From: Alphaproteobacteria bacterium | GTDB lineage: Bacteria > Pseudomonadota > Alphaproteobacteria > Caulobacterales > Aquidulcibacteraceae | Assembly: GCA_018971945.1 (NCBI GenBank) | Contig: JAGWZH010000016.1 | Coordinates: forward strand, 1 to 43,556 | Direction of reading: 5' to 3' | DNA length: 43,556 bases | Part shown: positions 21,277 to 41,350 of the stretch, in pieces | Layout of the letters: each line of letters starts with the position of its first letter | Position numbering within the stretch: position 1 is the first letter of the stretch | The notes under the pieces: generated by a model | What the model saw: the letters and a program-made list of their open reading frames with translations, nothing else | Databases searched by the model: none | What the model was told of the DNA's origin: nothing | Translations under genes and position numbers: made by a program

Positions 21277-22092
21277 CTAGGGAAAAAGGCGCAGAATGGC
21301 GCTTTGGCTGGCGGTGGCCATCAGCAACCCGTCATGGCTAAAAATATGCATTCTGCCGTGAACAAAGCCAGATCGAACCCCGTGAATGCGAATATCAAGG
21401 CACATCCACTCCGTGTCCACGAGCTGCCGGATCCTTATCGTATTGTCGAGACTATTGGCGCCCGCGTGCCGGCCGAGCGCGTGACCTGTGGCTGAGGGCA
21501 CAAAGTCGGCCAGGATGGCGAGAAGCCCACTTGTAACCGGCACGCCGTCCACGGCCCGACCCCACAAGACCGCATGACCGTCCTCGGAGAACTGACCATC
21601 CGCCCGGGCCGCGCCGTAGCGTCCTTTTGCAACCCGCAAATCGATTTTGTCGTGCATGTCCTTGTCTTGCGGGTTCCAGCGCGGCATCGGCAGGCAGTCC
21701 TCCGGGGGCGGCACGTCCGGCTTTTGCGCCCACTGGCCTTCAACGGCGTTCGGCCGCTCGCCCAGGGCGGCGTTGACGGTGAAAATCTCGGTGTCCGCCA
21801 CATGCCCCACGACCCGGGCCTGGGTCACGTTGTTTCCCGATCGCGGCACGATCACGTCCAAATCAACCATCGCCGGAGGGTGCGCGTAGGACAAATACTG
21901 CGCGGTCGCCCAGATTGTGGGCCGTCCCGTGGTCCGTTCCATCGCGGTGATCGCCGAGGCGAGGCCCACGCCGCCAAATAGGAATTTCTTTCCCGGCGGC
22001 CCCACGGTCACGTCCTGGGTGACCGGCAGATACCAACGGTGGGAATTGTGGGTTGCGCGCAAGTCGAAGAGGTCGGTCATGCGCCCTGACAT
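21277..22092 (-). CDS. acyl-CoA thioesterase family protein (double hotdog)
   Basis: The 271-residue protein fits the TesB-like thioesterase superfamily. The N-terminal hotdog has LFGGVGLASAITAMERTTGR and ATAQYLSYAHPPAMVDLDV. The C-terminal hotdog has NSLDNTIRIRQLVDTEWMCL and GRMHIFSHDGLLMATASQSA. The conserved segment DNTIR holds the Asp/Thr typical of the catalytic site. Substrate is not deducible. ATG 22092 has AGAGG eight bases upstream and follows the membrane-protein gene stop by ~20 bases, so the two form an operon on the minus strand. Confidence 0.85.
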   Translation of the reverse strand: MSGRMTDLFDLRATHNSHRWYLPVTQDVTVGPPGKKFLFGGVGLASAITAMERTTGRPTIWATAQYLSYAHPPAMVDLDVIVPRSGNNVTQARVVGHVADTEIFTVNAALGERPNAVEGQWAQKPDVPPPEDCLPMPRWNPQDKDMHDKIDLRVAKGRYGAARADGQFSEDGHAVLWGRAVDGVPVTSGLLAILADFVPSATGHALGRHAGANSLDNTIRIRQLVDTEWMCLDIRIHGVRSGFVHGRMHIFSHDGLLMATASQSAILRLFP

Positions 22093-22113
22093 GGGGCCGA
22101 CCTCTGATCCTGT

Positions 22114-23307
22114 CTAGGTCGCCATATGAGCGGCTGCTGCCGGGTTCATGGCGCGGCGGGTCACGCCCACGGCTGTAACCAAAAACGCCAGAACGAAGGC
22201 TAAAAGCGCAGTCTTGAGCGAGAAATCGCCCAGGTCTGCAAGATCAAACAGCAACCCGAGCATGCATCCCCCGACCACAAGCCAGCTCACCGCTCGGAAC
22301 ACGCCCGGGGCGGCGGCCCGTGCGGCGAACACAACAGCGAGCATCCCCGGCGCCAGCAGATAGACATCGATGGCCATGAGCCGTGGGATCAGGAGCGTGC
22401 CAAGAGCGAGGCCCATCCACACCCGCTCGCGGGCCGACAGGCCCGCCTGCGCCGCGATCGCCCACCCCGCCAGCGTCAGGATCGCTGCGAACGCGGCATA
22501 CCCCATCAACGCCGACGGGGCGGCGCCGGACACCCCGAAGACGGCGAGCCAGCCCCAGAAACCGTCCCCGGGGGCTCGCTCCACCGCCATGAAGCGGGTG
22601 ATCTCCACCCAGGCGTCCCACTCCGCCCCTCCCATATGGTAGGACCAAGCCCAGGGCCCGAGCGCCAAGCCGAGCGCCACAAGCCCTCCTAAGATCCGCC
22701 GCGGCCAGGAGACCGGCGCAACCAGGAACACGACCCCGAAAGTCAAAAGAACCGGTTTAAAGGCCCCCGCCACCCCCAGCGCCAGAGCGAGCGGCCAGAC
22801 GCTGGCCGTTGCCAGCAACGCTCCGGCAAGGACCAACGCGTGCAGGATAATGGCGACATTGCCAAGCACCACCGCGCTGCCGGTGATCAGGCCCAAAAAC
22901 AGAACCCGTTCCAACAACCGCCCCGGCGTCGCCCTGTTGAGGAACACCTGAAATGCAAGAAACGCCAACGCCAAGAGATAGAGAGCGACATAGGCTGCGA
23001 CAAAGCTGAACTCCCCAATCGAGTCGATGATCGCCCCCGCCCCCCGCGCCGCCCATGGCGCGTAGACGAACGTCGTGTGCCCAGGGATGTCGGCGCACAC
23101 AGCCTCCACGCCGTAGAACGGCGCGCCTGCCGAAGCGAGCCTTCCAGCGCACTGCACCGCCTCGAAATCATCCAGGAAACCGCCTCCCCCTTCGGCGATG
23201 CGGTTGACCAGGCCCTTCAACACAGGCAACCCAAACAGGAACGCGATCAAAACCCGGGTGGAAGTCTTGCGCGTCCGGGCGGCGAACCAGGCGAGGGCGT
23301 CCATCAT
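22114..23307 (-). CDS. multi-pass membrane protein, GT87 (DUF2029)-like
   Basis: The 397-residue protein has about ten hydrophobic segments. The N-terminal loop DDFEAVQCAGRLASAGAPFY followed by FVYAPWAARG resembles the first periplasmic loop of GT87-type polyprenyl-phosphate mannosyltransferases, where an Asp lies after the first helix. GNVAIILHALVLAGALL and GAFKPVLLTFGVVFLVAP are also typical. The sugar and acceptor are unknown. Start ATG 23307 (or 23304) has no clear ribosome binding site. It is divergent from the histidine kinase and upstream of the thioesterase. Confidence 0.75.
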   Translation of the reverse strand: MMDALAWFAARTRKTSTRVLIAFLFGLPVLKGLVNRIAEGGGGFLDDFEAVQCAGRLASAGAPFYGVEAVCADIPGHTTFVYAPWAARGAGAIIDSIGEFSFVAAYVALYLLALAFLAFQVFLNRATPGRLLERVLFLGLITGSAVVLGNVAIILHALVLAGALLATASVWPLALALGVAGAFKPVLLTFGVVFLVAPVSWPRRILGGLVALGLALGPWAWSYHMGGAEWDAWVEITRFMAVERAPGDGFWGWLAVFGVSGAAPSALMGYAAFAAILTLAGWAIAAQAGLSARERVWMGLALGTLLIPRLMAIDVYLLAPGMLAVVFAARAAAPGVFRAVSWLVVGGCMLGLLFDLADLGDFSLKTALLAFVLAFLVTAVGVTRRAMNPAAAAHMAT

Positions 23308-23393
23308 GTGCAAAGTTTAGCCATGTTGAACGGCAAGGCGCAATCCGGCGCCCGCGTGCGGTGAAGACGCCCGAAAAAGAAGGAGCGCGGTCT

Positions 23394-39754: not shown

Positions 39755-40003
39755 CTAACGCCCCGCGGCGACGCTCTGGGGACTGTTGTTCGGTTCAGGC
39801 AAGGCTACGCTGTCGGCGCCCAGCAACAAGGCCGCCGCCAAGCTGCCCATGATGAGGAAGAATCCGACCCTTTCTTCAAGCTCGATGGCGGTCGCCATCG
39901 CGGTGACCATGCTGTCGCCTCGCGCCTTACGAGGGTCTTTCAGCTCAGCTGACGCACGCTCTTTGGAGGTTTCAGTCATCGCGGCGAGGCTCATGTCGCG
40001 CAT
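39755..40003 (-). CDS. small membrane protein of unknown function
   Basis: The 82-residue frame starts at ATG 40003 (ATG 39994 and 39979 are in frame), 12 bases after the stop of the interrupted gene upstream. It has a charged N-terminal half (TETSKERASAELKDPRKARG) and one membrane segment (VGFFLIMGSLAAALLLGA) followed by a short polar tail. I recognise no family. Its position as third frame after the desaturase and the hydrophobic helix support a real gene. A GAGG lies just before the first ATG. Confidence 0.5.
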   Translation of the reverse strand: MRDMSLAAMTETSKERASAELKDPRKARGDSMVTAMATAIELEERVGFFLIMGSLAAALLLGADSVALPEPNNSPQSVAAGR

Positions 40004-40015
40004 GGCCTCAAGGGA

Positions 40016-40360
40016 CTAAGGGCTCAAACCCGCGCCAAGGAGCGAACTGACAAGCAACGCGCCGGCGGCCACGCGACGTAAGACGAACAGCGAAACAAGC
40101 AGCCCAAGCATGATGGCCAGCAGCGCCGCCAACGCAAAAGAGTTCGGATCTCGCCTTTCCTGGTCGAAGCCGCGCGAAATTTGTCCGCCGTTCAACTGCT
40201 GCAGGTCAAGGCTCGGCTGAAGCTACCCAGCCATCAACTGAAGACCCGTTCCCGTCGCCACCTCTGCCTGCGAACACGCGATGGCCGCCCAAGGCAAAAA
40301 GAACCCACTGATGGCGATGATCTTGGCGACCCTCTCCAAAACATTGAGAGCGCGCACCAT
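40016..40360 (-). pseudogene. small FLPW-type membrane protein gene interrupted by an in-frame amber codon
   Basis: From ATG 40360, 22 bases after the desaturase stop, the frame encodes MVRALNVLERVAK, a hydrophobic IIAISGFFLPWAAIACSQ and TGLQLMAG. It then meets TAG (40225-40223) and continues in the same frame for 68 more codons, through RRDPNSFALAALLAIMLG, LLVSLFVLRRVAAG and ALLVSSLLGAGLSP, to the final TAG at 40018-40016. The first half resembles small two-to-four-helix membrane proteins with an F-LPW-x3-S/A-C motif followed by SG-x-QL-x2-G. The second half supplies the remaining helices such proteins have. Nonsense mutation, sequencing error or readthrough would all fit. Confidence 0.6.
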
Positions 40361-40381: not shown

Positions 40382-41350
40382 CTAAGCGCCCTGATCAGAC
40401 TGCGCGCGAGATGGGGTCGCGGTCGCCTCGCGCAGCACCTGGCCATAGCCATGCGCCAACGTCATGCGGCGGTGCAGTCCCTTTTCGCCCAAGAGCCGGT
40501 GCATCAAACCGAGATGGTAGCAGGGCGTGTGCATAAAGAGATGGTGCTCGGCATGGAAGTTCACCCAATAGGGCGCGACCATCAGCCCCTCCCACCACGA
40601 GGTTTTTGTTGTCCGCGCCTGGCCGAAGGGATCATGGGGGCTTGGCAACGACGCGTGCTCAGCGATGTTGCGAAGCCGGGTCACCCATTGGCTCCAGGTG
40701 GCGAGCGGCGTCAGCCAGAGCGCGAAATAGGCCCACCACAGACCCACCATGGCGAGCCCAACCAGAAGGCCAAGATTGAACGCCAGAAACGGCAGGGCGC
40801 CGGCCGGAGGGCTGGTCTTGTTGTCCTGGCCCTTGAGCCGCCGGACCTGAAACCGGAAAAAGCCGCCGAGTTGGGCTGTACGCTGCTTGAGAAAGGTCTG
40901 CCCGGTAAGATCCCGGACCGCCTTGCGCCATAGGCTTTCGCGCGTGGTCGGAAATGCTTCCGCAAGCCCGAGATCGGGGTCCTCAGGCCGGTTGGCGAAC
41001 TTGTGATGCTTCAGATGATAGGCGCGGTAGCTTGCCAGAGAGGCGCCCACCGGTGCTGCGCAGAGCCACTGCCCAACCCAGTCGTTGAGCTTCTGATGGG
41101 GCGACAAGCCAAGATGGGCCGCCTCGTGCATAAGGATCGCCAGCCCCAATTGCCGCGTTCCGATGACCATAACCGCGAGAATGAAGGTCAGCGGGTTCGG
41201 CCATTGCAGGAAAATCCAGCCCGCAAGAGCGATCAGCCCCCAGGCATGCGCCACAAGAGCCATGCCCCGCCACGTCGACCGCGCGCGCAAGCGGCCCCAT
41301 TCTGCGGGGGTAAAAATATCTGACGGTGCGAGGCGGACGGCGGCGTCCAT
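40382..41350 (-). CDS. membrane fatty acid desaturase
   Basis: The 322-residue membrane di-iron enzyme has the three His boxes: H75-E-A-A-H79, H112-L-K-H-H116 and H266-A-E-H-H270, plus an extra His in NIAEHAS. Four or so membrane helices surround them. Proteins of this type put a double bond or hydroxyl on acyl chains or carotenoids using O2. The exact substrate is not clear. Two small membrane-protein frames follow on the same strand within 30 bases of one another, an apparent operon. Confidence 0.92.
   Translation of the reverse strand: MDAAVRLAPSDIFTPAEWGRLRARSTWRGMALVAHAWGLIALAGWIFLQWPNPLTFILAVMVIGTRQLGLAILMHEAAHLGLSPHQKLNDWVGQWLCAAPVGASLASYRAYHLKHHKFANRPEDPDLGLAEAFPTTRESLWRKAVRDLTGQTFLKQRTAQLGGFFRFQVRRLKGQDNKTSPPAGALPFLAFNLGLLVGLAMVGLWWAYFALWLTPLATWSQWVTRLRNIAEHASLPSPHDPFGQARTTKTSWWEGLMVAPYWVNFHAEHHLFMHTPCYHLGLMHRLLGEKGLHRRMTLAHGYGQVLREATATPSRAQSDQGA

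Follow-up and report, generated by a model that had tools for sequence, protein, structure and literature searches.

In-frame stop codons in genes with dN/dS < 1 have been reported to be widespread in bacteria and tend to persist for only a short evolutionary time (Belinky et al. 2021, PMC7918605); the portion of that study drawn on here focuses on stops that are common to the orthologs of two or more species. The claudin fold, as set out in the portion of its description used here (PMC13307082), comprises four helices and an extracellular sheet of five strands, the third and fourth of which are linked by a disulfide. We describe here a locus to which both are relevant. It lies on the minus strand of the window (the whole stretch of DNA analyzed, 43,556 nucleotides), and is very probably a recently inactivated gene, the pseudogene of a displaced copy carrying two nonsense changes. 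Its product is a small membrane protein of about 190 to 200 residues, known here from one bacterial family.

An earlier note on this DNA had reported a hidden small membrane-protein gene with an open frame of 115 codons and one TAG at codon 46, lying behind a desaturase and ahead of another small membrane protein. This frame is not on the plus strand at 40016-40360; on the minus strand, 40360..40016 comprises 45 codons, a TAG (40225-40223), 68 codons, and a second TAG (40018-40016). The frame from 40360 to 39755 has 202 codons, with stops at codons 46, 115, and 202 only, all of them TAG. The next ORF, mechanically listed as a separate 82-amino-acid frame (40003..39755), starts four codons (12 bases) past the second TAG, and its start shares one frame with position 40360, so the gene has 201 codons and two internal TAGs (Table 1). 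The interrupted frame of the earlier note is thus real, although its length and number of stops are not as described. The desaturase does lie upstream, its end at 40382 leaving 21 bases before the broken gene, and an ORF does begin 12 bases downstream, but this ORF, taken in the earlier note for a further small membrane protein, belongs to the gene as its third piece. No frameshift or deletion is present in the gene's 606 bases.

Table 1. Features of the interrupted gene and its upstream neighbor (window coordinates)
Feature	Coordinates	Strand	Observation
Whole gene	39755..40360	-	201 codons + terminal TAG, two internal TAGs; single frame; 17 uninterrupted relative copies
Piece 1, codons 1-45: first membrane helix and FFLPW segment	40226..40360	-	Relatives' profile, E 1.4e-17
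First in-frame TAG, codon 46	40223..40225	-	Sense codon in 17/17 relative copies
Piece 2, codons 47-114: loop and following hydrophobic helices	40019..40222	-	Relatives' profile, E 2.2e-14
Second in-frame TAG, codon 115	40016..40018	-	Sense codon in 17/17 relative copies
Piece 3, codons 116-201	39758..40015	-	Relatives' profile, E 0.0024, sole match among 9,503 segments
Terminal TAG	39755..39757	-	End of single frame
Upstream neighbor: fatty acid desaturase, intact	40382..41350	-	PF00487, E 8.4e-39

The joined 201-residue protein was searched against 60 genomes of the same bacterial family, including its own. Full-length uninterrupted homologs, whose presence the earlier note had proposed as a check, were found as 17 copies in 16 of the 59 other genomes (one genome has two; E 1.6e-28 to 1.4e-7), with 43 genomes giving no match and the own genome giving one match only, to the gene itself. 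All 17 copies span both TAG positions, and none has a stop. The same 17 places are found when the query is limited to the first 114 residues, and adding piece 3 increases the score at 16 of them (for example, from 49.0 to 74.4 bits in G065 and from 83.2 to 98.6 bits in G007), the sole copy scoring lower being that of G021 (35.4 to 32.2 bits). The ORF at 40003..39755 matches the C-terminal third of the relatives' protein; with that ORF in frame, and with 15 of the 17 relatives being 186 to 202 residues long, a gene end at 40016 is ruled out. The other two relatives, of 528 residues (L005:1492-3075, G009) and 509 residues (L099:241-1767, G068), share the N-terminal membrane module and continue into a large C-terminal part. 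A match in G033 to residues 15-58 (E 0.0093), with one TGA inside, is absent at E 0.001 and was treated as chance.

Profiles were also built from the relatives alone, cut at the two stop columns, and run against 9,503 stop-to-stop segments of the own genome's sampled sequence; each of the three pieces is the sole match to its profile at E up to 10 (Table 1). No congeneric genomes turned up in the searches. The protein family was not seen in 24 genomes from four further families of the same order, nor in 384 other genomes sampled across the class, at a threshold (E up to 1e-5) too strict for the weakest known member, nor, by profile, in 397 other genomes across the phylum. As listed, the class sample includes no other member of the own bacterial family, and the phylum sample includes two, in both of which the gene had already been found lacking.

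The pieces also retain the character of coding sequence. The 522,499 sampled bases of the own genome yielded 215 long ORFs for training a codon model, under which pieces 1, 2, and 3 have mean log ratios of 0.151, 0.124, and 0.208 (long-ORF medians near 0.185) and third-position G+C of 0.73, 0.71, and 0.77 (medians near 0.75), all within the genome's long-ORF range. These values, together with the profile match to each piece, bear out the proposal that the hydrophobic, gene-like parts before and after the TAG belong to a hidden membrane-protein gene. Coding selection acted on the gene until recently, or still does, and because the frame, the codon bias, and the third-position G+C of every piece are normal, any decay would be recent. 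In favor of a broken gene, the own sequence differs at 3 of 15 columns that do not vary among the other 17 rows, more than any other row does, and its end branch (1.74; median 0.18) is the second-longest of 18. The excess is small, however, and another divergent row differs at 2 of 14 such columns and has a longer end branch. Nor is the own sequence clearly over-diverged, since in all seven pairs compared its identity to the relative equals or exceeds that predicted from desaturase identity, on a line extrapolated below its fitted range. The choice of stop is unremarkable, since 31 of 50 single-base routes to a stop in this gene give TAG. Among the origins that the earlier note had listed, a fresh nonsense mutation fits best, with uninterrupted relatives spanning both stops.

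Programmed readthrough was another of those origins; both TAGs would be leaky, so that some 201-residue protein would still be made, at a low level, and used. Preservation of the frame and of codon usage in all three pieces is in keeping with this, as is the reported prevalence of in-frame stops in bacteria (see above), and because codon usage is still normal we allow it a very small probability. Conservation lends it no support, because none of the 17 relative copies has a stop; the conserved TAG that was to have been its signature was looked for in each and is present in none. The reportedly short persistence of in-frame stops also argues against it, two leaky stops in series would multiply the loss, and TAG appears to be an ordinary terminator in this genome, ending 47 of the 215 long ORFs. 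We found no CTA anticodon among 37 tRNA matches (36 anticodons were assigned by ARAGORN, and that of the 37th, which is cut by a contig end, was read by eye as CGT), in a set that must be incomplete, since tRNAs for Asp, Gln, and Ile are also absent from it. A second tRNA-Cys (gca; L174, contig C79) and a second tRNA-Phe (gaa; L177, contig C81), at 50.6 and 39.7 bits, score below the first copies; they are possibly decayed copies or contamination.

How TAG is read was also addressed by a scan for interrupted genes in 522 kb, 15% of the genome on contigs that are not a random choice, covering 2,960 stops with open frame on both sides. Ten stops were flagged, one of which is the second TAG of the broken gene. 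Eight of the other nine have different Pfam domains on each side and are pairs of neighboring genes, and the ninth has a domain on one side only; none of the nine has a Pfam domain across the stop, and no other clear interrupted gene was found in the 522 kb. The scan recovers 1401 of 4300 stops at random internal codons (sensitivity, 0.33) and passed over the broken gene's own first TAG, showing that it misses true cases; given this sensitivity and the non-random 15% sample, the absence of other interrupted genes is a weak bound. Within that bound, the many genes with in-frame TAG that would mark a TAG-reassigned code were not seen. Elsewhere in the window, at 21280-23316 on the minus strand, two coding-like frames in the same phase flank a TAG at 22116, and a Pfam acyl-CoA thioesterase domain lies only after the stop; this is likely to be a pair of neighboring genes.

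The earlier note had also considered a sequencing error. The stops could be assembly or sequencing errors, or a minority allele in the consensus, with the organism's gene being intact; the assembly consists of 233 contigs, its contamination is estimated at 1.8%, and apart from the stops the frame is faultless, which is what one would see if they were not real. Nonetheless, this needs two independent substitutions within 210 bases of one gene and no frameshift, and no other clear interrupted gene was found in the scanned 522 kb (at the low sensitivity given above). We regard an error as improbable, and nonsense mutation as the better account.

The most confident model of an intact relative (L003:1489-2085, G017) has a pLDDT of 81.3 and a pTM of 0.74, and the other four models average 55.7 to 73.9. 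When the two stops are placed on the L003 model, the first cut falls shortly past a beta hairpin, and the second lies within a long helix (residues 91-134). Proteins terminated at either TAG would not be expected to fold. The position of the second cut also bears on whether the gene has been split into two or three separately translated proteins, with translation restarting after each stop. An ATG four codons past the second TAG and a TTG ten codons past the first could provide the starts, but that ATG aligns inside the relatives' single frame, none of the relative copies is split, and the second cut lies within the modeled helix; we give such a split hardly any credence.

The genomic position of the broken gene differs from that of its relatives. 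A mesaconyl-CoA hydratase gene is within about 2.5 kb in 15 of the 17 relative loci (one locus per copy), the exceptions being L161, with only DUF885 in the stretch taken, and L099, with none of the genes sought; sdhC matches occur in nine loci and DUF885 in nine, with at least one of the two in 15 of the 17. In the own genome, the hydratase (contig C64) is followed 110 bases on by sdhC (L227:995-2544), and no family row matches this site at E up to 1e-3. A conserved pairing with the desaturase is ruled out, as no convincing relative of the gene is present in 109 other desaturase loci: 80 loci with flanks of up to 3 kb gave only L071 (E 0.13) and L020 (E 0.45), both weak and taken as chance, and 29 loci with 1.5-kb flanks gave none at E up to 0.01. 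Conversely, none of the 28 loci holding relatives (these overlap, and cover the 17 copies) has a desaturase. With the hydratase slot empty, and the broken copy behind a desaturase in a pairing unseen elsewhere, the copy appears to be displaced, being either a moved gene or a paralog whose partner has been lost.

We therefore consider a displaced and then inactivated copy to be the best explanation. In this sequence of events, the copy would have been displaced first and then broken by nonsense changes to TAG at codon 46 and again at codon 115. Translation would then end after residue 45, so that only a single membrane helix and the beginning of the loop behind it would be made. No intact copy was found elsewhere in this assembly, and we infer that function has been lost, that the loss is recent, and that displacement preceded the breakage. 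The locus is probably an ordinary and recent double-nonsense pseudogene that was mistaken for two small genes, and it illustrates that one broken gene can pass for two or three small 'hidden' genes if stop-to-stop frames are read singly. The analysis removes a candidate for readthrough; leaky readthrough, if true, would make this ordinary chromosomal gene an example of double amber readthrough.

The family itself has no name. P0001 and P0004 have no Pfam match, and Pfam searches with 15 intact members gave weak matches only, the best being to Trp_oprn_chp (PF09534; E 0.0002), with six of the 15 matching it at E up to 1; its best member scores 21.7 bits, below the curated cut-off of 29.6, and ten members rescanned with Pfam are not over any cut-off. 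The best NCBIfam matches have E 0.0022 (2 of 16 members) and 0.0083 (1 of 16). Foldseek comparison of the L003 model with the PDB gave claudins and TARP subunits as the best matches (E 3.8e-3 at best, none ≤0.001). With VIA-align, claudins, TARPs, GARLH4 complexes, a designed claudin fold, and two calcium-channel complexes, in which we take chain E to be the gamma subunit, make up the 50 matches listed; these have Z of 11.1 to 12.4 and rmsd of 2.4 to 4.3, and the program cautions that, for helical bundles, Z values under about 13 may carry little meaning. The read-through window protein gave a poor model (pLDDT 63.2, pTM 0.41), in which the strands of the L003 model do not appear. At the level of sequence, the Claudin_2 profile matches 3 of 15 members weakly (best E 0.047), and the family profile gave two unrelated weak matches to PDB chains and no claudin up to E 10. 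The modeled resemblance of the intact family to claudins and TARPs is thus only a lead. It is possible, but rather doubtful, that this protein family, found here only in one alphaproteobacterial family, folds as a reduced claudin/TARP, with four helices and a small extracytoplasmic sheet, and that the present genome either is losing the gene through two amber stops or makes a trace of the protein through leaky TAGs. No literature on claudin-like proteins in bacteria stood out among the matches listed, which is no proof of absence from print. A claudin-like fold in an unnamed bacterial family would interest students of that fold's origin; the significance of the locus is low for stop codons and moderate for the unnamed family.

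Comparison with the known systems places the locus as follows. The one confident model of an intact relative resembles the claudin/TARP fold in having four long helices, with strands following helix 1 and another strand preceding the last helix. The family differs in being bacterial, in having no significant sequence match, and in having three strands of three or more residues in that model rather than the five given in the portion of PMC13307082 used here; its single invariant cysteine leaves no conserved pair for the disulfide. Like the genes under purifying selection in the portion of PMC7918605 drawn on here, the present gene has an in-frame TAG with coding-like sequence on both sides, but its stops are in one genome and are absent from all 17 relative copies. 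With bacterial nonsense pseudogenes it shares a single stop-interrupted frame, intact orthologs in related genomes, and an otherwise gene-like sequence; it differs from them in having no frameshift or deletion as yet, in that its two stops are of the same type, and in its location away from the relatives' usual locus.
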